Below, one piece after another: positions 950 through 19,502 of a DNA stretch of 64,000 nt; the stretch's first letter is position 1; each line of letters opens with the position of its first letter. The DNA comes from Tieghemostelium lacteum (Eukaryota; Evosea; Eumycetozoa; Dictyosteliales; Raperosteliaceae): contig LODT01000039.1 of the NCBI GenBank assembly GCA_001606155.1, positions 310,001-374,000 on the forward strand. The letters are read 5' to 3'. The translations under genes were made by a program, and so were the position numbers. The notes under the pieces are model-generated. The model was not told the DNA's origin and made no database searches. It saw nothing but the letters and a program-made list of their open reading frames with translations.

Positions 950-3900
950 ATGTTACAAAATAATATTGATTTTAAAGACAGTGATATTGCAGTAATAGGT
1001 ATTGGCTGCAGATTCCCAGGAGATTCAAATTCACCAAAAGAGTTATGGGAAAACTTAACTAACAAAAACTTTAGTGGAATTGTTGAGGTTCCTGAGGAAA
1101 GATGGTCACCATTATTTCATCAACAAGGAATGATAGGCAATTCAAAATCAGGTTTGATTGATTTTAAACATTGGAAACAATTTGATTCTCTATTCTTTGG
1201 TATCTCTCCCCAAGAATCAACAAACATTGATCCACAAGAGAGAATGTTGAATGTACTTCTTTGGGAAGCATTAGAAGATGCTCATATCAGACCATCTGAA
1301 TTCAGAGGTTCTGATACATCTGTTTTCATTGGTTCAATGCACAATGATTACCCAAACATTAGACTTGTTCAGAAATCGACTACTCATTCTTCAGGAACAT
1401 CATCAACATTTTTATCAAATTCATTATCTTTTGCATTTGATCTTAGAGGCGCATCAATGACTCTTGACTCAGCATGCTCATCATCATTGAATGCAATTCA
1501 TCTTGGTTGTCAAACCATTCTCAACGGTGAAAGTCAAATTTCAATTTGTGGTGGTGTAAATGCATTGTTTGATCCATTAATTTCTATAAATTATTCTCGT
1601 CTTGGTATTTTGAGTAAAAAAGGAGTTTCAAGACCATTTGATAGTGATGCAGATGGATATATCAGAGGTGAAGGTGCTGGATTGGTTGTTCTCAAGAAAT
1701 TATCAAAAGCCATTCTTGATAAAGATAGAATCTATTGTGTTATCAGAGGTTCTTGTTCAAATTCTGATGGTCAAAATCAAAAGAACTATTCCACTCAACC
1801 ATCAGGTCAAGCTCAATATGAAAATATTGTACAAACATTGAATCGATTTGAAATTCCTCGATCTGACATTTTCTATGTTGAAGCACATGGAACAGGTACT
1901 CCAGTTGGTGATCCAATTGAAGTTGAAGCACTCTCAAGAATTTTCAAAGATCACCATTCTTCTGACAATCCATTATATATTGGAAGTCTCAAATCACAAT
2001 TTGGACACACTGAACCAGCAGCTGGAGTTGCATCACTCATTAAAGTTGCAATGATGTTAAAACATCGAAAACTTTCACCAAACATCAATTTCATTAATCC
2101 AAATCCAAAAATTGACTTTGATAATTGGAATATCAAAGTTGTCACTGATTTTATTGATTTCCCTCAAGATCAAATCATCACAGTTGGTTTGAATAGTTTT
2201 GGATTTGGAGGTTCAAATTGTTTCATGGCAATTCAAGAATATCAACCAATAAACGATCAAATAACCACCAAGATCCCAATAGAAGAATCTGAATATTTAA
2301 TTCCATTCTCAGTTAAATCACAATTATCATTTGATAAATACATTGATGAAGTTATCAGAAGAAAATCAAACATTAATAATGATGAATCATTTCATGATTT
2401 TGTCAGATATCAATGTCAATCAAAAGATTTGAATCTTCACAAAAGAATTACACTCTCTTGTAAAGATTGGAATGATTTGATATCAAAAAGAAATCTAATG
2501 ATTTCAGATTCAGAAACAAGATCCAATGATTTGACATCAATTGTTTATGTATTCTGTGGACAAGGACCACAATGGAAAGAAATGAATGATTATCTTTATC
2601 AACACAATCACATCTTCAGAAATTCAGTTCAACAATGTGATAATCTGATGAAAGAATACTTTGGATATTCAATTCTTGATAAATTGAGATCAATAGCCTC
2701 GGATTCAAATGAAATTCATCATCCAATCATTGCACAACCAAGTTTATTCTTGTTTCAATTTGGAATGATGAATCTTCTCAAAAGTTGGGGAATTCAACCA
2801 GATGCTGTTGTTGGTCATAGGTATGTAATAATTTTCAGTTTTAATTTTTAATTTTGTTTTTAGAAAGATCTTTCTAACAAATGTTTAAACATTAATTTAA
2901 TAGTTTTGGAGAAGTTACATCAGCATTATGTTCTGGAATTATAACACTTGAAAATGCAATCAAAATTGTATATTTCAGATCAACATTACAACAACTCACT
3001 GTTGGAAGTGGGAGATTGTTATCAATTGGAATTGGAATCGATAAATATAATGAATTGATTGATAAATCAGAACAACTTCAATCATTGAAGGATAAAATTG
3101 AAATTGCATGTTTCAATTCACCTGATTCAATTGTATTAACATCTGATGAAGATAATTTGAAAACAATTCAAAATCACCTTCAAGATCAAGGAATATTCAG
3201 TTCATTCTTAGGAACACCATGTTCATTCCATTCGAGTAAACAAGAATCAATCAGAGATAAAGTCATTGAATCACTTTCAGATCTTCCTCAATCATCAACT
3301 CCGAAAATTCCATTCTTTTCAACAGTGACAGGACAACAAATGAAAGAAGATTCATTTTACAACAATGAATACATTTATCAAAACCTTCGACAACCAGTCA
3401 GATTCAATGAATCAACTCAATCAATTTATCAATTCATTAATGATAAACAAAAACAACAACCAAACTCATCAACAATATTCATTGAAATCTCACCTCATCC
3501 AACACTCTCATTTTACATTCCTCAATGTATTAAAGTAACACCCAACTACAGTATTAATTATAATAATAACAAAATCACAACACTCTCATTGATTCACAAA
3601 AAGAAATCAATTCCAGAACAAATTCAACAAACGCTTTCACAACTCTATCTCAATGGAATCAATTTGAATTTTCAATCTGCACAATTTCAAAGTGAGGAAT
3701 TGCACAACTCATCATTTAAGTATCGAACTGATTGGATTCCAAAATATCAATGGGATTCACAAGAATATTGGAATACTCCAAAAATTCTTCGAAATGACAT
3801 ACTTCCATCAGCCAATTTACTTGGTAAAAACAAAGAACATGGAATCACTGTTTTAGAGACTTTAATTGATCTGCAAAAACCTGCATTCGAATTTTTGAAA

Positions 3901-6900
3901 GGACATATTATCAAAGGTAAAGTTATCTTTCCAGGATGTGGATATCTTGATATCATCTTGAAACAATACCCAAAACAAGATTTGACAATCTATAATCTGA
4001 TTTGTGAGAAACCATTATTGATTTCAAATGATCGACCAGTTATTATTCAAACAATCATTCAACCAACAATGACTCGTTCTGAATTCAGAATTGATTTCTA
4101 TTGTAGAGATACCATCACTGAAAAATGGACAAAAACAACTCATGGAAGATTTGCATTACATTCTCTTGATTATCAGAAATCTCAATTTGATATTGATAAA
4201 ATCAGAAAAGAATGTTCATTTGCCAGATTGAATAAAACTGAAATCTACAACAGACTTGTACAATTGGGATTACCATATGGTCCATCATTCCAAAGAGTAA
4301 AGTATATGGATATAAGTTCATTTTCAACATTTACAGTTCTTGATGCAGTCAACAAAGATAAATCATTCTATTTCAATGCAGCTACACTTGATTCAGCATC
4401 CCATGGTTTAATGTCAGGAATAGAACCACCTCAAGATCTTGTCTTAGATACTGTTGAATTACTCAATTATTACCCATCAAACATGACATCTGATCAACCT
4501 GATACTCTATATATCTATGGTTTAGGTAATGGACAAACTAGTAACAGTTCTACTGGTACTGTATACATCATCAATCCAGTCAATGGAAGATCAATCATTC
4601 ACATGAGAGTTAAAATGACATCGATAGTCAAAATTAAACACATCACACCAACTGGTCTGTTCAACATCAAATATCCATCCAAAGAAATATTCACCTACCA
4701 TTGGCAACCAAAAGAATCAATTCTCTCTGATATTGATCATCAATATGACCTAAACAATTCACAACCAATGAATATGTTGAAACATAAATTCTATCAATTG
4801 AAAAATATCAAAATTTCTGGTAAACATCTCATCAAAATTCTCTTTTTTAATGACGATGATGCTGCTAACAATAACAATGAAATGAATTTGAATTCAATCA
4901 TTTCAATCATTGAATCACAATTGACTGACAATTCACAATTCATCATTGATATTACCAATTTGGCAACAACAAAGAATGTAACTGAAATCAATGAGTCACT
5001 GAATGATAAACATCATAGAATTTCAATCAGAAATCGATCAATTCAACATGGAATTGAATCATTTGATCCTGAAAAAGAATTTATTCATAAATCAAATTTT
5101 GATTTGATTATTCTTCCATCTTCCATTTTGAAATCGATGAAAGATGATAATGGTGAAAAAACCAAATCCATTCTTTCACATCTTCACAATCTCTTGATTC
5201 CAAAAGGTTCATTGATGATATTTGACAAACAACAACAAGAAGAGGCAGATCAAGAGGTTTCCATCAACACCACATTGATATCTCAATTATCAAATGTTGG
5301 ATTCTCATTTAACAACCAGATTCAATCATCAAGTAAAGTATCATCAAAATCAATTTTCTGCTATAAAAATGATTTCTTCAACTCAAAACAGAATAACAGT
5401 AATAACAACTTGATTATCATTCCATCATCAATATCAATAACTGATAACCAACAGTTGATGAGAAGCATTGATTTAATATTCAATAAACAACAATATCAAA
5501 TAATGAATTGTAATGATTTCTTATCATCTGAAACAACACCAATAGATCAAAATCAAAATATATTCTATTATGGAATTAATATGAACAAAGAAAATTACAT
5601 TCAAATATCAATGGAATATATCAGAATTGCACAATTTCTTCATAAATCTCAATCAAAGTCAAAATATATTCTTTTGACTGAGAATTTTGATTCAATGAAC
5701 AACCTGAACTATTTCAATGGATCTTTGATTGGTTGTTTTAGAAATCTCGGTAAAACTGAATTGATTGATGCTTATTCCATTAATTTTGATCAAGATTCTA
5801 TAAAATCAAAGAAATCTCCATTAATAACTTCAATGATTGATTCTAACATGATAGGATGTGATAAAGAAATCATAATCAGAAATGGACACGTTCAAATTCA
5901 AAAATTACATCAAGATGATTTTAAATCAAATTTATATGAAACTGATTTGAACAAACTCTATTTAAGATGTAATTCAAAACTTTTAATGGAATATTTTCCC
6001 AAACCAGAACTTCAACCATTTGAATATGAAGTTAAAGTGATGGCAGCTGGTATTAACTTCAAAGACAATATGTTCTATAAAGGTTTATTACCACTTGATA
6101 TGTACCCTGAAGGAACTGATATCTATAATCCACCCATTGGATTAGAATTCTCTGGAATTGTTACAAGAATGGGTTCAAAATGCACCAAATTCAAAATTGG
6201 TGAAAGAGTTATTGGAGGAGGTTTATATACAGTAGCCTCTCATGTATATGTACATGAACATAAATTCACACATTTACCAGATAATATCAGTTTTGTTGAT
6301 GGAGCATCAGTTCAAATAACCTATTTAACTTCTTACTACTCTTTATTCTCTCTTGTGAATATTGAAGCATTTGGTTCAATTCTAATCCATTCGGCAGCTG
6401 GTGGTGTTGGTCTATCAACTCTTAACCTTCTCAAATGGAAGAAATATCAAGGTAAAATATTTGTCAGTGTTGGTTCTAAAGAGAAAGAACAATACCTCAG
6501 AGATCATTATGGTGATATGATAACTGACTATTACAACTCAAGAACAGTTGCATTTGGTCAAGAAATTATTGATAAATATGGAGGTGTTGATATCATTATC
6601 AATACACTTTCAGGTGATTTCACATCAACCAATTTCAGTTGTCTCACCAAGATTGGAAGAATTGTTGATCTTTCTGTCACTCAATTGGTTGAAAATGAAA
6701 CTTTGGATCTTGGTCAGTTCAGATACTCCAAAGCATTCATTCCATTTGAATTGTCGGCATACAGAGAAGTTAAACCACTAGAATGTGTAAATTACACTGA
6801 TATCATTCTTGAAGCAATCTCAAAAGGTGAATTAGAACTTTTTCCCATAAAACAATATAGAAGTGATCAAATGAAAGAAGCAATTGAATATATTGCAGAA

Positions 6901-8121
6901 TCTAAACACATTGGGAAATTGGCTATAAATTTTGAAAATATTGAACAAGAGGTCATCTCGCCAATGTTAAAACAATTCAAAGAAAATCCAAAATTATCAC
7001 CAATTGAAAACCAAAGAATTCTGAAATACAACTATCAAATGAGAAACATCAAAGATACTCTCTTAATCACTGGTCAATCTGGTGTTGTAATTCCAGTTTT
7101 GAAATGGATTCTTCAAAGATCACCAAATCTAAAGAATGTGATTATTCTCTCAAAATCATCATGCAAATGGGAAATTGAATGGGTGAAGAATTGCAACAAA
7201 CACATTCAATTCTATTTCAGACAATGTGATGTTTCTGAAAAATCTGATATCCAAAGATGCATTGAAAATATTCAACTTGAACACTCTCAAACTTTATCAA
7301 TTAAATCAGTTTTACATTTTGCTGCAATTTATGATTCAACTGATTTCCCTGAAATGAATGAATCAATATTCACAGAAACTCACAAACCAAAAGCCATTGG
7401 TGCAATTAATTTACATGAAATTTCAATTGAACAACAATGGAATTTAGATCATTTCATTTTATTCTCTTCAACCTCAGGATTCACAGGATCTAATAAACAA
7501 AGTCATTACAATTCAGCCAATCTATTATTGGATCATTTGGCAGAATTCAGAAGATCAATTGGATTGAATGCAGTTTCAATCAACTATGGTGCAATGGGAG
7601 GAACTGGTTTTGTTTCAACCAACAAGGCAATCGAAGAATACCTTCAATCAGAAGGAATGAACCTCGTTTCAATTCCAAAGATACTTGGTGGATTGGATAT
7701 TGCACTTCAAATTGATCAAAAATCGATTTCAAATTTCCAATGCTCAAACAATAGTTTTGTAAAGATGTATTACGTTGGAAAACTGTTGAGAAATGTATTA
7801 GATCATTTAATTCCCAAACCAGATCAAATCCATCAATTATTCAATAATGATAACATCACATCTGAATTCACCACCATCAATGATAGTGTTCAATCCAAAG
7901 TCATTCAAATGGTATCACAACTCTTATCAATTGAAGTATCAAAACTCAACCCAGATATCAAATTGAAAGATTATGGAATTGATTCACTCGTGACAACTCA
8001 ACTCAAAACATCCATTGAAGACACTTATGAACAGACTAGAAGCCAATTCACTCACATTCAATTGATTTCAAATTCCACCAATTCTATTGCTCATAAAATT
8101 TCATACATAATTAATAAATAA
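950..8121 (+). CDS. Type I iterative polyketide synthase, tandem copy 1
   Basis: Joined exons are 950-2820 and 2904-8121 (intron of 83 nt, GTATGT...TTAATAG), giving 2362 residues. The order is KS (about 12-430; Cys176, His313, His353), AT (about 530-850; GHSFGE with Ser624, and a CSFH motif at 730-733 that fits malonyl rather than methylmalonyl selection), DH (His958 in HIIKGKVIFPGCGY, Asp1120), a degenerate methyltransferase (about 1260-1400), ER (about 1650-1970; NADPH motif HSAAGGVG), KR (about 2010-2210; GQSG motif, Tyr2159) and ACP (Ser2318 in YGIDSL). It ends 44 residues after that serine with no thioesterase, reductase or type III domain. It should build a reduced acyl chain from malonyl-CoA, released by an unknown route. 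Its nearest relative is the next gene. Confidence 0.93.
2904..3632 (+). repeat. Identical tract shared by the two PKS genes (copy 1)
   Basis: I find no difference by eye between 2904-3632 and 11168-11896, over 729 bases covering the second part of the AT domain. The intron just before it differs by several indels, and substitutions resume right after it. Such a sharply bounded perfect tract is typical of gene conversion between tandem copies. Confidence 0.75.
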
Positions 8122-9221: not shown

Positions 9222-12200
9222 ATGTTACAAAATAATATTGATTTTAAAGACAGTGATATTGCAGTAATAGGTATTGGCTGCAGATTCCCAGGAGATTCAA
9301 ATTCACCAAAAGAGTTATGGGAAAACATAACTAACAAAAACTTTAGTGGAATTGTTGAGGTTCCTGAGGAAAGATGGTCATCATTATTTCATCAACAAGG
9401 AATGATAAGCAATTCAAAATCAGGTTTGATTGATTTTAAACATTGGAAACAATTCGATTCTCTATTCTTTGGTATCTCTTCCAAAGACTCTGAAAATATT
9501 GACCCCCAGCAGAGAATTTTATATTCAATACTTTGGGAAGCCTTAGAGGATGCGCACATCAAACCACCTGAATTAAGATGTTCTGATACATCTGTTTTTA
9601 TTGGTTCAATGAACAATGATTACCCAAATATTAAAAAAACTGAAAAATCTAGTATTGTATTGGGTACTTCAACAACATTTTTATCAAATGCTCTTTCATT
9701 TGCATTTGATCTTAGAGGTGCATCAATGACTCTTGACACTGCATGCTCATCATCATTGAATGCAATTCATCTTGGTTGTCAAACCATTCTCAATGGTCAA
9801 AGTCAAATTTCAATTTGTGGTGGTGTAAATGCATTGTTAGATCCATCAATTTCTGTAAATTTTTCTCAACTTGGTATTTTGAGTAAAAACGGAGTTTCAA
9901 GACCATTTGATAGTGATGCAGATGGATATATCAGAGGTGAAGGTGCTGGATTGGTTGTTCTCAAGAAATTATCAAAAGCCATTCTTGATAAAGATAGAAT
10001 CTATTGTGTTATCAGAGGTTCTTGTTCAAATTCTGATGGTCAAAATCTAAAGAATTATAACACTCAACCATCAGGCCAAGCTCAATATGAAAATATTGTA
10101 CAAACATTGGATCGATTTGAAATTCCTCGATCTGACCTTTTCTATGTTGAAGCACATGGAACAAGTACTCCTGTTGGTGATCCAATTGAAGTTGAAGCAC
10201 TCTCGAGAATTTTCAAAGATCACCATTCATCTGAGAATCCATTATATATTGGAAGTCTCAAATCACAATTTGGACACACTGAGTCAGCATCTGGAGTTGC
10301 ATCACTCATTAAAATTGCAATGATGTTAAAACATCGAAAACTTTCACCCAACATCAATTTCATCAACCCAAATCCAAAAATTGACTTTGATAATTGGAAT
10401 ATCAAAGTTGTCACTGATTTGATTGATTTCCCTCAAAATAAAACCATCACAGTTGGTTTGAATAGTTTTGGATTTGGAGGTTCAAATTGTTTCATGGCAA
10501 TTCAAGAATATCAACCAATAAACGATCCAATAACCACCAAGATCCCAGAAGAACTATCAGAATATTTAATTCCATTCTCAGTTAAATCTCAATTATCATT
10601 TGATAAATACATTGATGAAGTTATCAGAAGAAAATCAAACACTGAAAATGATGAATCATTTCATGATTTTGTTAGATATCAATGTCAATCAAAAGATTTG
10701 AATCTTCAAAAAAGAATTACACTCTCTTGTAAAGATTGGAATGATTTGATATCGAAAAGAAATCTAATGATTTCAGATTCAGAAACAAGATCAAGTGATT
10801 TGACATCAATTGTTTATGTATTCTGTGGACAAGGACCACAATGGAAAGAAATGAATGATTATCTTTATCAACACAATCACATCTTCAGAAATTCAGTTCA
10901 ACAATGTGATAATCTGATGAAAAAATACTTTGGATATTCAATTCTTGAAAAATTGAGATCAATAGCTTCGGATTCAAATGAAATTCATCATCCAATCATT
11001 GCACAACCAAGTTTATTCTTGTTTCAATTTGGAATGATGAATCTTCTCAAAAGTTGGGGAATTCAACCAGATGCTGTTGTTGGTCATAGGTATGTTAATT
11101 TTCAGTTTTTAATTTTGAATTATGAATTTCGTTTTATTTTTCTAACAATTATTTTCTAATTTAATAGTTTTGGAGAAGTTACATCAGCATTATGTTCTGG
11201 AATTATAACACTTGAAAATGCAATCAAAATTGTATATTTCAGATCAACATTACAACAACTCACTGTTGGAAGTGGGAGATTGTTATCAATTGGAATTGGA
11301 ATCGATAAATATAATGAATTGATTGATAAATCAGAACAACTTCAATCATTGAAGGATAAAATTGAAATTGCATGTTTCAATTCACCTGATTCAATTGTAT
11401 TAACATCTGATGAAGATAATTTGAAAACAATTCAAAATCACCTTCAAGATCAAGGAATATTCAGTTCATTCTTAGGAACACCATGTTCATTCCATTCGAG
11501 TAAACAAGAATCAATCAGAGATAAAGTCATTGAATCACTTTCAGATCTTCCTCAATCATCAACTCCGAAAATTCCATTCTTTTCAACAGTGACAGGACAA
11601 CAAATGAAAGAAGATTCATTTTACAACAATGAATACATTTATCAAAACCTTCGACAACCAGTCAGATTCAATGAATCAACTCAATCAATTTATCAATTCA
11701 TTAATGATAAACAAAAACAACAACCAAACTCATCAACAATATTCATTGAAATCTCACCTCATCCAACACTCTCATTTTACATTCCTCAATGTATTAAAGT
11801 AACACCCAACTACAGTATTAATTATAATAATAACAAAATCACAACACTCTCATTGATTCACAAAAAGAAATCAATTCCAGAACAAATTCAACAAACTCTT
11901 TCACAACTATATTTCAATGGAATCAATTTGAATTTTCAATCTGCACAATTTCAAAGTGAGGAATTGCACAACTCATCATTTAAGTATCGAACTGATTGGA
12001 TTCCAAAATATCAATGGGATTCACAAGAATATTGGAATGCTCCAAGTATTCTTCGAAAAGACATACTTCCATCAGCCAATTTACTTGGTAAAAACAGAGA
12101 ACATGGAATCACTGTTTTAGAGACTTTAATTGATCTGAAAAGTCCTGCATTCGAATTTTTGAAAGGACATGTTATCAAAGGTAAAGTTATCTTTCCAGGA

Positions 12201-15200
12201 TGTGGATATCTTGATATCCTCTTGAAACAATACCCAAAACAAGATTTGACAATCTATAATCTGATTTGTGAGAAACCATGTTTAATTTCGAATGATCGAC
12301 CAGTTATTATTCAAACAATCATTCAACCAACAATGACTCGTTCTGAATTCAGAGTTGATTTCTATTGTAGAGATATCAACAATGATAAATGGACAAAAAC
12401 AACTCATGGAAGATTTGCATTACATTCTCTTGATTATCAGAAATCTCAATTTGATATTGATAAAATCAGAAAAGAATGTTCATTTGCCAGATTGAATAAA
12501 ACTGAAATCTACAACAGACTTGCACAATTGGGATTACCATATGGTCCATCATTCCAAAGAGTAAAATATATGGATACAAGTTCCAATTCAACATTTACAG
12601 TTCTTGATGCAGTCAACAAAGATAAATCATTCTATTTCAATGCGGCTACACTTGATTCAGCATGTCATGGTTTAGTATCAAGAATGGAACCACCTCAAGA
12701 TCTTGTCTTTGATAGGGTTCAATTACTCAATTATTATCCATCAAACATGACATCTGATCAACCTGATACTCTATATATCTATGGTGTAGATAATGGACAA
12801 AAATGTAACAGTACAACTGGCACTGTATATATCATCAATCCAGTCAATGGAAGATCAATCATTCACATGAGAATTAAATTGACATCGATTGTCAGAATTA
12901 AACACATCACACCAACTGGTCTATTCAACATCAAATATCCATCCAAAGAAATATTCACCTACCATTGGCAACCAAAAGAATCAATTCTCTCTGATATTGA
13001 TCATCAATATGACCTAAACAATTCACAACCAATGAATATGTTGAATCATAAATTCAATCAATTGAAAAATATCAAAATTTCTGGTAAACATCTCATCAAA
13101 ATTCTCTTTTTTAATGACGATGATGCTGCTAACAATAACAATGAAATGAATTTGAATTCAATCATTTCAATTATTGAGTCACAATTGAATGATAATTCAC
13201 AATTCATCATTGATATTACCAATTTGGCAACAACAAAGAATGTAACTGAAATCAATGAGTCACTGAATGATAAACATCATAGAATTTCAATCAGAAATCG
13301 AACAATTCAACATGGAATTGAATCATTTGATCCTGAAAAAGAATTTATTCACAAATCAAATTTTGATTTGATTATTCTTCCATCTTCTATTTTGAAATCG
13401 ATGAAAGATGATAATAGTGAAAAAATCAAATCCATTCTTTCACATCTTCACAATCTCTTGATTCCAAAAGGTTCATTGGTGATATTTGACAAACAACAAG
13501 AAGAAGAGCTCTCCATCAACACCACATTGATATCTCAATTATCAAATGTTGGATTCTCATTTAACAACCAGATTCAATCATCAAGTAAAGTATCATCAAA
13601 ATCAATTTTCTGCTATAAAAATGATTTCTTCAACTTCAAACAGAATAACAGTAATAACAACTTGATTATCATTCCATCATCAATGTCAATAACTGATAAC
13701 CAAAAATTGATGAGCAATATCGATTTTATATTCAATAAACAACAATATCAATTAATGAATTGTAATGATTTCTTATCATCTGAAACAACACCAATAGATC
13801 AAAATCAAAATATATTCTATTATGGAATTAATATGAACAAAGAAAATTACATTCAAATATCAATGGAATATTTCAGAATTGCACAATTTCTTCTTAAATC
13901 TCAATCAAAGTCAAAATACATCCTTTTGACTGAGAATTTTGATTCAATGAACAACCTGAACTATTTCAATGGATCTTTGATTGGTTGTTTTAGAAATCTC
14001 GGTAAAACTGAATTGATTGATGCTTATTCCATTAATTTTGATCAAGATTCTATAAAATCAATGAAAACTCCATTAATAACTTCAATGCTTGATTCTAACA
14101 TGATAGGATGTGATAAAGAAATCATAATCAGAAATGGACACGTTCAAATTCAAAAATTACATCAAGATGATTTTAAATCAAATTTATACGAAACTGATTT
14201 GAACAAACTCTATTTAAGATGTAATTCAAAACTTGTAATGGAATATTTTCCCAAACCAGAACTTCAACCATTTGAATATGAAGTTAAAGTGATGGCAGCT
14301 GGTATTAACTTCAAAGACAATATGTACTATAAAGGTTTATTACCAATTGATATGTACCCTGAAGGAACTGATATCTATAATCCACCCATTGGATTAGAAT
14401 TCTCTGGAATTGTTACAAGAATGGGTTCAAAATGCACCAAATTCAAAATTGGTGAAAGAGTAATTGGAGGAGGTTTATATACAGTAGCCTCTCATGTATA
14501 TGAACAAGAACATAAATTCACACATTTACCAGATAATATCAGTTTTGTTGATGGAGCATCAGTTCAAATAACCTATTTAACTTCTTACTACTCTTTATTC
14601 TCTCTTGTGAATATTGAAGAATTTGATTCAATTTTAATACATTCAGCAAGTGGTGGTGTTGGTCTATCAACTCTTAACCTTCTCAAATGGAAGAAATATC
14701 AAGGTAAAATATTTGTCAGTGTTGGTTCTAAAGAGAAAGAACAATACCTCAGAGACTATTATGGTGATATGATAACTGACTATTACAACTCAAGAACAGT
14801 TGCATTTGGTCAAGAAATTATTGATAAATACGGAGGTGTTGATATCATTATCAATACACTTTCAGGTGATTTCACATCAACCAATTTCAGTTGTCTCACC
14901 AAGATTGGAAGAATTGTTGATCTTTCTGTCACTCAATTGGTTGAAAATGAAACTTTGGATCTTGGTCAATTCAGATTTTCCAAAGCATTTATTCCATTTG
15001 AATTATGGACATACAGACATATTAAACCAAGAGCATGTGTAAATTACACTGATATTATTCTTAAAGCAATCTCAAAAGGTGAATTAGAAGTTGTTCCCAT
15101 AAAACAATATAGAAGTGATCAAATGAAAGAAGCAATTGAATATATTGCAGAATCTAAACACATTGGGAAATTGGCTATAAATTTTGAAAATATTGAACAA

Positions 15201-16373
15201 GAGGTCATCTCACCAATGTTAAAACAATTCAAAGAAAATCCAAAACTATCTCCAATTGAAAACCAAAGAATTCTGAAATACAACTATCAAATGAGAAACA
15301 TCAAAGATACTCTATTAATCACTGGTCAATCTGGTGTTGTAATTCCAGTTTTGAAATGGATACTTCAAAGATCACCAAATCTAAAGAATGTGATTATTCT
15401 CTCAAAATCATCATGTAAATGGGAAATTGAATGGATAAAGAATTGCAACAAACACATTCAATTCTATTTCAGACAATGTGATGTTTCTGAAAAATCTGAT
15501 ATCCAAAGATGCATTGAAAATATTCAACTTGAACATTCTCAAACTTTATCAATTAAATCAGTTTTACATTTTGCTGCAGTTTATGATTCAACTGATTTCC
15601 TTGAAATGAATGAATCAATATTCACAGAAACTCACAAACCAAAAGCCATTGGTGCAATTAATTTACATGAAATTTCAATTGAACAACAATGGAATTTAGA
15701 TCATTTCATTTTATTCTCTTCAACCTCAGGATTCACAGGATCCAATAAACAAAGTCATTACAATTCAGCCAATCTATTATTGGATTATTTGGCAGAATTC
15801 AGAAGATCAATTGGATTGAATGCAGTTTCAATCAACTATGGTGCAATGGGAGGAACTGGTTTTGTTACAACCAACAAAGCAATTGAAGAATACCTTCAAT
15901 CAGAAGGAATGAACCTCGTTTCAATTCCAAAGATACTTGGTGGATTAGATATTGCACTTCAAATTGATCAAAAATCAATTTCAAATTTCCAATGCTCAAA
16001 CAATGATTTTGTAAAGATGTATTACAATGGAAAACTGTTGAGAAATGTATTAGATCATTTAATTCCCAAACCAGATCAAATCCATCAATTACTTAACAAT
16101 GATAACATCACATCTGAATTCACCACCATCAATGATAGTGTTCAATCCAAAGTCATTCAAATGGTATCGCAACTCTTATCAATTGAAGTATCAAAACTCA
16201 ACCCAGATATCAAATTGAAAGATTATGGAATTGATTCACTCATGACAACTCAACTCAAAACATCCATTGAAGACACTTATGAACAAACCAGAAACCAATT
16301 CACTCACATTCAATTGATTTCAAATTCTACCAATTCTATTTCTCTTAAAATTTCAAATATAATTAATAAATAA
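9222..16373 (+). CDS. Type I iterative polyketide synthase, tandem copy 2
   Basis: Joined exons are 9222-11089 and 11168-16373 (intron of 78 nt, same position and phase as copy 1), giving 2357 residues. The domain order matches copy 1: KS with Cys175 in DTACSSS and the HGTSTPVGDP and GHTE motifs, AT with GHSFGE at Ser623, DH, degenerate MT, ER with HSASGGVG, KR, and ACP with Ser2313. Most of the protein is nearly identical to copy 1. Differences cluster in KS residues about 86-175 and in scattered parts of DH, MT and ER, and a four-residue deletion lies after the MT region. Exon 2 starts with a stretch showing no difference from copy 1 that I can see, which points to recent gene conversion. 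It also lacks a release domain. Both copies look intact and functional. Confidence 0.93.
11168..11896 (+). repeat. Identical tract shared by the two PKS genes (copy 2)
   Basis: Partner of 2904-3632 with a constant offset of 8264 bases. The first mismatch is 3633 (G) against 11897 (T). Confidence 0.75.
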
Positions 16374-16436
16374 ATAGCCAGTTTAGAATTTAATATTATT
16401 TTTTTTTATTTTTTGAATTATGAAGTAATATTTACA

Positions 16437-18125
16437 ATGTCTAATCACAATGATCATTTCCAAATCCTTTTTAATAATAGTTTTATAAGATTGAAGATAT
16501 TGAATGGAATTGATAGAGTTATAGATTTACTAAGATTGATGTTTACTTCAAATCAAAATAGGAAATTGATACAATCATCAATAGACAAAATGTCAATCAC
16601 TATAAAACAGAGAGATATTATAAAAGGAACTCTTGAACAGATTATTAAAAACCTATCTAATGTTCATACTTTAGATATTCATCTACCATCGATAGAAAGT
16701 CTATATCAACTGAAATCTGTTAATACATTGATTATTAGGAGATTTCCAGAAATCAAACAGAATAAGGAACAGTTATTCACTCATCTTTCAAAAGTTGTTA
16801 AAGATGAATTAAGAATTTGTAATTCTAATGTTGATATTAACATTGGAGGGATTGATAGACTGATAAAACAGCTATTTTTAGATACTCTACCCACTCGATA
16901 TACATTCGAAAGTTTTGATCAGATCACCACACTAAGACAAAACCCTCTAAAATCATTGTATCCACATTGTGTATCAATCATTTCACAGAAACACTTTCCA
17001 TTACTTCAAAATATCATTTTGAATGGGGATCAGATTACAGATCAGATTTTACAGAATCTATCAAAATCAGCTCAATTGAGGAATGTAAAACTTTATAGGT
17101 GTTCACAAGTCACAGATGTTGGAATGGTTGCATTTAGAGATACTGTTACTAAACTTGATGTGGACGATTTACCAGAAATCACAGATTTAGCACTTCAATA
17201 CCCACATCTAAAATACCTAAAGATTCAACATTGTCCAAAAGTAGTTGGACATTGTTTTGAATGGTTATCTAATACATTAGAGAATATTGATATTGGAAAT
17301 TCAATTATATATCTCAAGCCCGTTAACAACTATGATTCCTATAAATATTTTAGAAAGATTCCAAATGTCACAATTAACCTGAGAGAGGGTAATGTCAGTA
17401 ATACATGGGATAAAGAAAATGAATATTCACATCTCGCTTTATTGACCCATTTTAAAACTTTTCCAACCTCTCAAATGTTAACCGATGATATTCTATCGAA
17501 TTTAACAAGAGTAAAGGTTTTGTATTTTGGCTCTTACGGTGGAAGAAATCATACATTCTCTGATATTGGAATTCAAAGAATGATTGAAAATAGGTACCCA
17601 AAAGAGAATAATCCTATAGAGAGTATTATTCTAGATAGCTTTTTAGTTACTGATAAATCACTTGAATATCTCAGTACAATTGTAATTAACAGAATAGAAC
17701 TCATATGTGCTGATATCACCGATGAAGGGTGTAAATACCTGAACCAAATCAACGATATTTCTCTATGCCTATGTGATAGATTAACAGATGATGCAATGCA
17801 ACATCTTAGTCATGTAAAAAATCTTGAAATTTTATGGTTAAACATCACAGAAAACGGAATAAATCATTTAAAATCCCTAAAAGAGTTGGTTATAGATGAT
17901 GAATTTCCAGTGGAAGCATTTGAATATTTACCACACATTGATAAACTTACAGTTTTAGGGTGGAGAGACCCAATACCCTTTTCAGTAGCCAAACATCTTA
18001 AAAACCTAGTTGAACTTGTTGAAAATAATGGTGATTGTAATTTTACACAAGATGAAGAACAATATGAAGACAGTGAAAATAAATTATTCCTACACCAAAA
18101 TGGTGTCATTTTATCCATTCTTTAG
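16437..18125 (+). CDS. Leucine-rich-repeat protein (AMN1-like LRR)
   Basis: 562 residues. I start at the ATG at 16437 (MSNHNDHF); the open frame extends eight codons further but without ATG. From about residue 200 on there are irregular repeats of the cysteine-containing LRR type, such as LRNVKLYRCSQVTDVGMVAF, IELICADITDEGCKYL and ISLCLCDRLTDDAMQHL. This pattern is typical of AMN1/F-box-LRR proteins. I see no convincing F-box in the first 60 residues and no transmembrane segment. The gene begins only 63 nt after the PKS 2 stop on the same strand, so its promoter must be very short or overlap the PKS 3' end. The LRR fold implies protein binding; the partner and any link to polyketide production are unknown. 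Confidence 0.75.
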   Translation: MSNHNDHFQILFNNSFIRLKILNGIDRVIDLLRLMFTSNQNRKLIQSSIDKMSITIKQRDIIKGTLEQIIKNLSNVHTLDIHLPSIESLYQLKSVNTLIIRRFPEIKQNKEQLFTHLSKVVKDELRICNSNVDINIGGIDRLIKQLFLDTLPTRYTFESFDQITTLRQNPLKSLYPHCVSIISQKHFPLLQNIILNGDQITDQILQNLSKSAQLRNVKLYRCSQVTDVGMVAFRDTVTKLDVDDLPEITDLALQYPHLKYLKIQHCPKVVGHCFEWLSNTLENIDIGNSIIYLKPVNNYDSYKYFRKIPNVTINLREGNVSNTWDKENEYSHLALLTHFKTFPTSQMLTDDILSNLTRVKVLYFGSYGGRNHTFSDIGIQRMIENRYPKENNPIESIILDSFLVTDKSLEYLSTIVINRIELICADITDEGCKYLNQINDISLCLCDRLTDDAMQHLSHVKNLEILWLNITENGINHLKSLKELVIDDEFPVEAFEYLPHIDKLTVLGWRDPIPFSVAKHLKNLVELVENNGDCNFTQDEEQYEDSENKLFLHQNGVILSIL

Positions 18126-18295: not shown

Positions 18296-18362
18296 TGGTG
18301 ATTCTAATAAAATAAACACTTATAAATCACAATTTCAAACATAAATTTTATTATTTAATGTT

Positions 18363-19502
18363 CTATAGTTTTTTAATTATAGCCCCTTCTGCAATAATAC
18401 CACAACCAAATGCCATTATAAAACCATAATCGTTTTTCCAAGGGTATTTTGAATTTCTTGATTCATTCAATACAAAAAAGGCACTACAAGCACAAACATG
18501 ACCATATTTTCTAAGTACATCTTTAGAATATCTTAAATCTTTTTTTGTTACTTTGGAATTAGCACGTAAAACGAAATATGGTCCTGTATGAAGTATGTAT
18601 TCAAAGTTATTTAAGTTATTACTAGGAAGTGGTATGGTACATTTATCAACTAATGTTTTTGCAAATGGTAATAGTGATGCTGATATTTTTACTTGAAGAC
18701 GATTGGTAAAAGTAATTAAAGAATTATTATTCTTTAATATTATTCCCAAATCCTCTTGTGAATTTGGTATTGTTCTACTTTGGACCGGGAATAATTCGAA
18801 TATTGGTTTTGATTCGTATGAAATTTCACTTGGTGAACCTATAACCAATGAAGCAGATCCATCACCTAAAATTAAATTCATAATAAAAGTTGGTTTATCT
18901 ATACTATCAAATTGTAAGTGATTCATAAACATTTCAGTAACAACTAATAAAATTCTATTTTTAGGATTTAATCTTGCTAATTGTTCTGAGAGTTTTAATG
19001 CAGTCAAACCACATTGAAAAGATTGAAATATCATTGGTATTTTTTCAACGTCGTGTCTCAAACCTAATTGCCGAATCAAATCAAGGGATATATCTTGAAA
19101 TCCTGTTGAGGACACATAGATTATGTGAGTTATATCTTGAACATTTCCTCCCCATTCTCTCAAAGCCTCTCTACTAGATTGTAATGATAATTTTAGTGAT
19201 GGTTCATATACAGAGTTATCACTATCTTCAATATTTGGAACAATTTCTTTCTTTAGAATTTTTTTCATTCTTTCGGTGGCATCAAAGGTAAGGTATCTAT
19301 TCTCAACATAAAGGTATTTTTTAAATAACCTATTTAAACCCAAAAGTTTAAATACTTTTGAATTTTGAAAAATTCGAGGTAACTTAGATATTGCAAAATC
19401 TAAGAATTCATTATCATTCAGAGTATCAGCTGTACTGTTTTTTACATCAGAAACTGAATTTGCCAAACCATATATATATACTGTCTTTTTTATGTTTTTC
19501 AT
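18363..19502 (-). CDS. Free-standing divergent type III PKS (chalcone synthase fold)
   Basis: 379 residues from the ATG at 19502 (MKNIKKTVYIYG), preceded by an A-rich context; the frame extends nine codons further without ATG. It aligns with plant and bacterial type III PKS over nearly its full length: EPSLKLSLQSSREALREWG, ITHIIYVSSTG, LGLRHDV, ILGDGSASLVIG, the His loop (ILHTGP, His305) and a C-terminal AFGCG where the family has GFGPG. Aligned without gaps from LGLR, the nucleophile Cys position holds Phe162, and the only nearby Cys is two residues later (Cys164). The family Asn (YGN) is His335 (YGH). Canonical condensation chemistry is therefore doubtful. The frame is long and intact, so the protein is probably selected for. 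Dictyostelid type III PKS domains known to me are fused to type I PKS (Steely); this one is alone. Confidence 0.85.
   Translation of the reverse strand: MKNIKKTVYIYGLANSVSDVKNSTADTLNDNEFLDFAISKLPRIFQNSKVFKLLGLNRLFKKYLYVENRYLTFDATERMKKILKKEIVPNIEDSDNSVYEPSLKLSLQSSREALREWGGNVQDITHIIYVSSTGFQDISLDLIRQLGLRHDVEKIPMIFQSFQCGLTALKLSEQLARLNPKNRILLVVTEMFMNHLQFDSIDKPTFIMNLILGDGSASLVIGSPSEISYESKPIFELFPVQSRTIPNSQEDLGIILKNNNSLITFTNRLQVKISASLLPFAKTLVDKCTIPLPSNNLNNFEYILHTGPYFVLRANSKVTKKDLRYSKDVLRKYGHVCACSAFFVLNESRNSKYPWKNDYGFIMAFGCGIIAEGAIIKKL

Follow-up and report, generated by a model that had tools for sequence, protein, structure and literature searches.

The gene at positions 18363..19502 on the minus strand of the window (the whole stretch of 64,000 nucleotides analyzed here) raises the question of what a type III polyketide synthase (PKS)-like protein may still do when Phe occupies the place of its catalytic Cys. 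This Cys is very constant in the family: it is reported as conserved in all of the >1000 fungal type III PKSs covered by one survey (PMC12559476, in the portion of the text available to us), and it is present in 144/144 of the other sequences aligned in this study. The same portion of the survey describes one major cluster in which the His and Asn are changed (H303D and N336S), and seven modelled cyanobacterial type III PKSs are reported to retain the triad (PMC8086630).

The coding sequence, which is supported by its open reading frame, Pfam and phmmer, specifies 379 amino acids plus a stop. Its frame runs from an ATG at 19502 to a stop codon at 18363, is open throughout and makes an intron unnecessary; the initial annotation had likewise described an intact frame of 379 residues. 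A run of 379 open codons would occur by chance at the local base composition with a probability of about 3e-14 (i.i.d. estimate). An AATAAA hexamer located 10 nt past the stop codon (18347..18352, minus strand) is a possible poly(A) signal, which is weak evidence in AT-rich DNA. The 466 nt upstream of the coding sequence contain stops in all three frames and are followed by a divergent NAD synthase gene; thus, the gene is free-standing. The arrangement of the Steely hybrids, a type III domain behind a type I PKS, is not found in this single-domain frame. A Steely gene with an overlooked type I part was also considered as a candidate and is ruled out by the closed upstream frames. The view that the locus encodes a stand-alone type III PKS-like protein therefore holds on the evidence of frame, Pfam, phmmer and upstream region. 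A tblastn search of the window with this protein matched its own gene and nothing else below E 3, so that no paralogue was detected in the window.

Membership of the family is well supported by several searches. Both Pfam domains, Chal_sti_synt_N (PF00195, 7e-21) and Chal_sti_synt_C (PF02797, 1e-12), pass the curated cut-offs, and the protein scores 147 bits against a profile from which it had been left out. Among solved proteins, the type III domain of Steely1 (StlA) from D. discoideum is nearest in sequence, with an E value of 3e-37 (phmmer) and 29-31% identity. The AF2 model, which was based on a 44-row alignment, has a mean pLDDT of 76 and a pTM of 0.83. Its top PDB match in Foldseek is also Steely1 (2h84, TM 0.83), and every one of the 50 entries listed, out of 1260 PDB matches, appears to be a type III PKS. 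Confidence in the model drops in some regions: pLDDT falls below 50 at residues 21-29 and ~59-87, the block 301-310 around His305 averages 58, and the blocks within 301-320 average 57-58. According to this prediction, the thiolase-type fold of the chalcone synthase (CHS) monomer is present, with low confidence in the N-terminal third and in residues 301-320. The initial annotation had the protein following the chalcone synthase fold from end to end; AF2 and Foldseek support this, with the poorly modelled residues 21-29, ~59-87 and 301-310 as a caveat.

The active site was examined in a MAFFT alignment with 144 comparison rows, of which 141 are domains encoded at bacterial loci and three derive from PDB entries. 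The 141 domains were kept from 149 domains at 149 loci; the absent ones (L043, L086-L090, L110 and L117) were identical to others or spanned <270 residues. A first contig scan had returned no relative. A contig scan with two patterns, of which one contains the Cys motif and the other the His-Gly-Gly motif, contributed 79 rows, which are hence biased at those columns. This pattern scan used plasmid-borne bacterial proteins and gave at least 570 relatives, of which the best 80 were taken; the AF2 alignments drew on 43 of these 80 loci. Another 62 rows were retrieved through their similarity to the protein studied here; these and the three PDB rows are free of the pattern bias. Plasmid records gave a match in 131 cases, five of which were fetched, and whole genomes with a match numbered 31 of 398 and 73 of 282, which contributed 29 and 30 new loci, respectively. 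All 65 unbiased rows are canonical at the nine tabulated active-site columns.

Phe162 (19017..19019; this and all other codons given here are on the minus strand) falls without a gap on the catalytic Cys column, where the other sequences have Cys in 144/144. Four alignments agree on this register, namely the phmmer alignment with Steely1, two MAFFT alignments (one with the three PDB-derived sequences and one with the 144 rows) and the independent profile. In the latter, which was built without this protein, the posterior is "*" across the Cys motif and there is no gap. A shift of the alignment that would restore the Cys was examined separately and is ruled out by this ungapped profile alignment. 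The earlier observation of Phe at the Cys site, followed by a Cys two residues on, is thus confirmed; this Cys164 (19011..19013) occupies a column with Ala in 124/144 and Gly in 20/144 rows. The 144-row alignment likewise upholds what had been said of the rest of the site. The catalytic His is kept as His305 (18588..18590; His in 144/144 others), the catalytic Asn is replaced by His335 (18498..18500; Asn in 144/144), and the [GA]FGPG loop reads AFGCG here, with Cys367 (18402..18404) in place of a Pro found in 144/144 others. Phe162, Cys164, His305, His335 and Cys367 were confirmed codon by codon.

Several departures go beyond the initial annotation. The Gly preceding the nucleophile is Ser161 (19020..19022) and, in the His-x-Gly-Gly loop, Pro308 (18579..18581) replaces the second Gly, both columns being Gly in 144/144 other rows, and Cys337 (18492..18494) stands in a column that is Ser in 141/144. 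The loop at 134-142 has a two-residue deletion and has lost an invariant Pro (138); the placement of the gap varies among three alignments, none of which has the Pro. A second invariant Pro is lost at position 270. In addition, the N-terminal third contains ~16 extra residues (50-65 in the 144-row MAFFT alignment, 19308..19355), whose place is ambiguous, as the profile puts them earlier. Leu212 occupies a column with Phe in 138/144 and Trp in 6/144 rows, which we take to be that of the Phe215 gatekeeper of CHS. At seven of the 18 near-invariant columns (>=98% constant in the other rows), namely 138, 161, 162, 270, 308, 335 and 367, the protein has a different residue, and it keeps His305 and ten more. 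When each of the other 144 rows was examined in the same leave-one-out manner, 136 departed at none, seven at one and one at two. By the features of the type III PKS family, the protein therefore has the CHS-domain similarity and the His, and lacks the Cys, the Asn and the Pro of GFGPG.

We favor, with modest confidence, the reading that the gene encodes a free-standing and selectively maintained type III PKS pseudo-enzyme that would be dead for condensation and would bind acyl chains or a partner. Without the nucleophile, no starter would be loaded on the usual Cys, and the loss of both Cys and Asn would leave neither malonyl-CoA decarboxylation nor chain extension. What probably remains is an acyl-thioester pocket, which would then bind acyl-CoA, acyl-ACP or a finished polyketide. 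Alternatively, the protein might associate with a functional type III domain, such as that of a putative Steely in the same cell, and tune or protect its chemistry. Which partner or ligand would be involved is a guess. CoA enters CHS at the N-terminal region, and since model and alignment are at their poorest there, acyl-CoA binding is left as a proposal. The loop that has lost Pro138 lies at the dimer interface in CHS, and the loss speaks against an unchanged dimer.

Published CHS mutants provide the closest analogy. The C164A, C164S and C164D mutants are reported to form no naringenin, N336H to abolish malonyl-CoA decarboxylation, and all Asn336 mutants but N336H to raise the Kd for acetyl-CoA 15-40 fold (PMC6274091, in the portion available). 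As the protein effectively corresponds to a naturally occurring C164F N336H form of CHS (CHS numbering), condensation and decarboxylation should be gone. Judged from these mutants, there is probably no condensation and no decarboxylation, with CoA-ester binding possibly spared. Against a strict version of this view, the C170S and C170R mutants of a moss CHS reportedly keep some pyrone-forming activity (PMC3431822), so that loss of the Cys by itself may not abolish all activity. The case against a maintained pseudo-enzyme is also that the protein is known from one sequence. The initial annotation had offered two options, a Cys moved to Cys164 in a Cys-His-His site, or a protein that no longer condenses and instead binds, hydrolyses or transfers an acyl chain. 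The second is better supported by the loss of the Cys, the Asn, two Gly and the GFGPG Pro and by the CHS mutants. A condensing Cys-His-His site is disfavored by the N336H result and by the absence of an indel that would shift Cys164.

Other chemistry at the same site needs to be weighed against this reading. A re-tooled thiol enzyme, in which Cys164 or Cys337 would carry out acyl transfer or hydrolysis together with His305/His335, seems unlikely to us. In the AF2 model, the helix spans 164-178, with Cys164 at its start and 161-163 outside, where the canonical range would be 161-178; in a canonical bacterial control (L015; pLDDT 93.6), the helix spans 149-166 and the nucleophile Cys150 is its second residue. 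The first helix turn thus appears unwound in the prediction, which leaves a possible role for Cys164, a predicted boundary being weak evidence. Moreover, of the five Cys in the protein, all but one lie within five active-site segments (35 residues; hypergeometric 3e-4, with segments chosen post hoc), and the other rows have 0-2 Cys in the same segments besides the nucleophile. The column of Cys337 (Ser, two after the Asn) lines the CHS cavity. However, no indel carries Cys164 into the Cys column, the Asn and two loop Gly are gone, AF2 is of low confidence around His305, and N336H of CHS is reported to be inactive in decarboxylation (PMC6274091). The clustering of Cys in the active-site segments weakly supports a new thiol or metal site. 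A rebuilt site in which Cys164, Cys337 and Cys367 together with His305 and His335 would make up a new pocket for metal binding or thiol chemistry is somewhat more doubtful still, and a metal or thiol use of the type III PKS fold was not met in the open-licence literature searched. It is very unlikely that the protein is a malonyl decarboxylase that makes acetyl units in the manner of KSQ or CHS C164A, with the nucleophile lost and the His kept. His305 is indeed retained, and CHS C164A and C164S are reported to largely keep decarboxylation; this reading is weakened by the equivalent of N336H, the change that abolishes decarboxylation in CHS (PMC6274091), and by the Leu at the presumed gatekeeper column.

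The gene might instead be a young pseudogene, or a lineage- or strain-specific dying copy, in which the site has drifted after a recent loss and the frame is still unbroken. We regard this as fairly unlikely. The protein has the longest end branch of a 32-row tree (3.05 vs. a median of 0.66), as would be expected under relaxed constraint and equally under a new role. Seven near-invariant residues are lost, and the single known sequence is compatible with a dying copy as well. The in-frame coding signal is 0.228 bits per codon (negative in two shifted frames and the one antisense frame tested), which is near the bottom of the 15 other frames in the window (0.197-0.505, with lower values in three; the codon table was trained on 13 of these 15); for synonymous choice alone, the values are 0.076 for this gene and 0.005-0.230 for the others. 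Against decay stand His305 and the ten other near-invariant residues that are kept, and also simulations that started from this coding sequence with simple neutral mutation and one set of settings. When 39% of residues were changed, which equals the fraction of near-invariant columns lost, decay produced a mean of 12 stops and 0/300 runs were stop-free. No run was stop-free at 20% either (0/300). At 10%, 10/300 runs were stop-free and 0/300 were free of both stops and indels. At 5%, 61/300 were stop-free, 19 of them also indel-free, and about one loss among the 18 columns would be expected, not seven. Drift heavy enough to cause the seven losses would have broken the frame, and therefore these losses were probably fixed under selection on the frame. 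Long neutral decay is thus disfavored, and functional divergence followed by later death may be compatible with the simulations. In that sense, the earlier judgement that the gene is "not simply decaying" agrees with the simulations, with recent death after divergence still compatible. A sequencing or assembly error, or an alignment artefact, is scarcely credible: only one copy is at hand, but a few base errors would hardly produce seven separated changes and leave the frame intact, and the four alignments concur on the register.

The protein differs in distinct ways from the known systems that it resembles. In a tree of 32 of the 145 rows, the protein is placed beside Steely1 and two plant enzymes (93/88), and a clade of the protein and Steely1 alone is neither established nor rejected (AU p 0.358); both have an odd letter make-up. 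Steely1 is its best match in sequence and in fold, but has Cys-His-Asn and AFGPG where this protein has Phe-His-His and AFGCG, and its type III part sits at the C-terminus of a large type I PKS, whereas this protein is free-standing. The CHS domain of StlB in stalk cells is likewise described as a free type III domain acting alone in a dictyostelid (PMC9489281, in the portion available); that domain is freed by cleavage of the fusion and supports a product, whereas the present gene encodes a single domain whose catalytic residues are gone. The open-licence dictyostelid literature, in the portions available to us, describes Steely fusions, and no stand-alone dictyostelid type III PKS was met in it, which is consistent with the statement in the initial annotation that no stand-alone dictyostelid member with this triad is known. 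Plant chalcone and stilbene synthases share with this protein the predicted fold, the start of the His loop and the GDG motif, but it lacks their Cys, Asn and GFGPG Pro, and its 134-142 loop is shorter by two residues. A condensing-enzyme fold in which another residue stands in for the nucleophile is also seen in the KSQ domains and chain-length factors of type I and II PKSs, the latter working as non-catalytic partners. These are members of the KAS I/II branch, in which Gln typically takes the place of the Cys. Unlike them, this protein lies in the type III branch, as its best families and structures are type III, and its residue is Phe, not Gln.

Viral relatives were searched for as well. 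Viral contigs, scanned once with the protein and once with a 4-row alignment, and phage records, searched by tblastn, yielded no relative. The two best viral structural matches in BFVD are A0A5K0UBM6 from Yasminevirus (a giant virus) and D0UWK5 from Streptomyces phage ZL12, both named as type III PKSs, and the sequence searches are therefore judged to be insensitive.

The window also contains a tandem pair of type I PKS genes, on the plus strand and thus opposite to the type III-like gene. One (9222..16373) has the Pfam domain order KS-AT-DH-ER-KR-ACP, and its tandem copy (950..8121, Pfam) is 93% identical at the protein level. Both have the KS Cys motif and the ACP Ser motif and terminate in the ACP without a type III domain. 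D. discoideum Pks16 is the sole PDB match at E <1e-60 for the type I PKS (one copy searched). The AT motif of each copy is apparently split by an intron, the splicing in 9222..16373 being inferred by eye. A 570-aa frame (16413-18125) separates the PKS pair from the type III-like gene; it is leucine-rich-repeat-like by eye and has no Pfam match at E 0.01. The window has a GC content of ~30% and also encodes a Dicty_CTDC/PA14 protein (Pfam); together with the Pks16 match, these features give it a dictyostelid appearance.

The interest of this protein is decided by its conservation. As a dying gene, it would be of small interest. If it is maintained, it would be a natural pseudo-synthase and a test case for the uses of the type III PKS fold apart from condensation. 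It might then also be a possible regulator of the polyketide signals of social amoebae, in which a free type III domain reportedly matters (PMC9489281, in the portion available).
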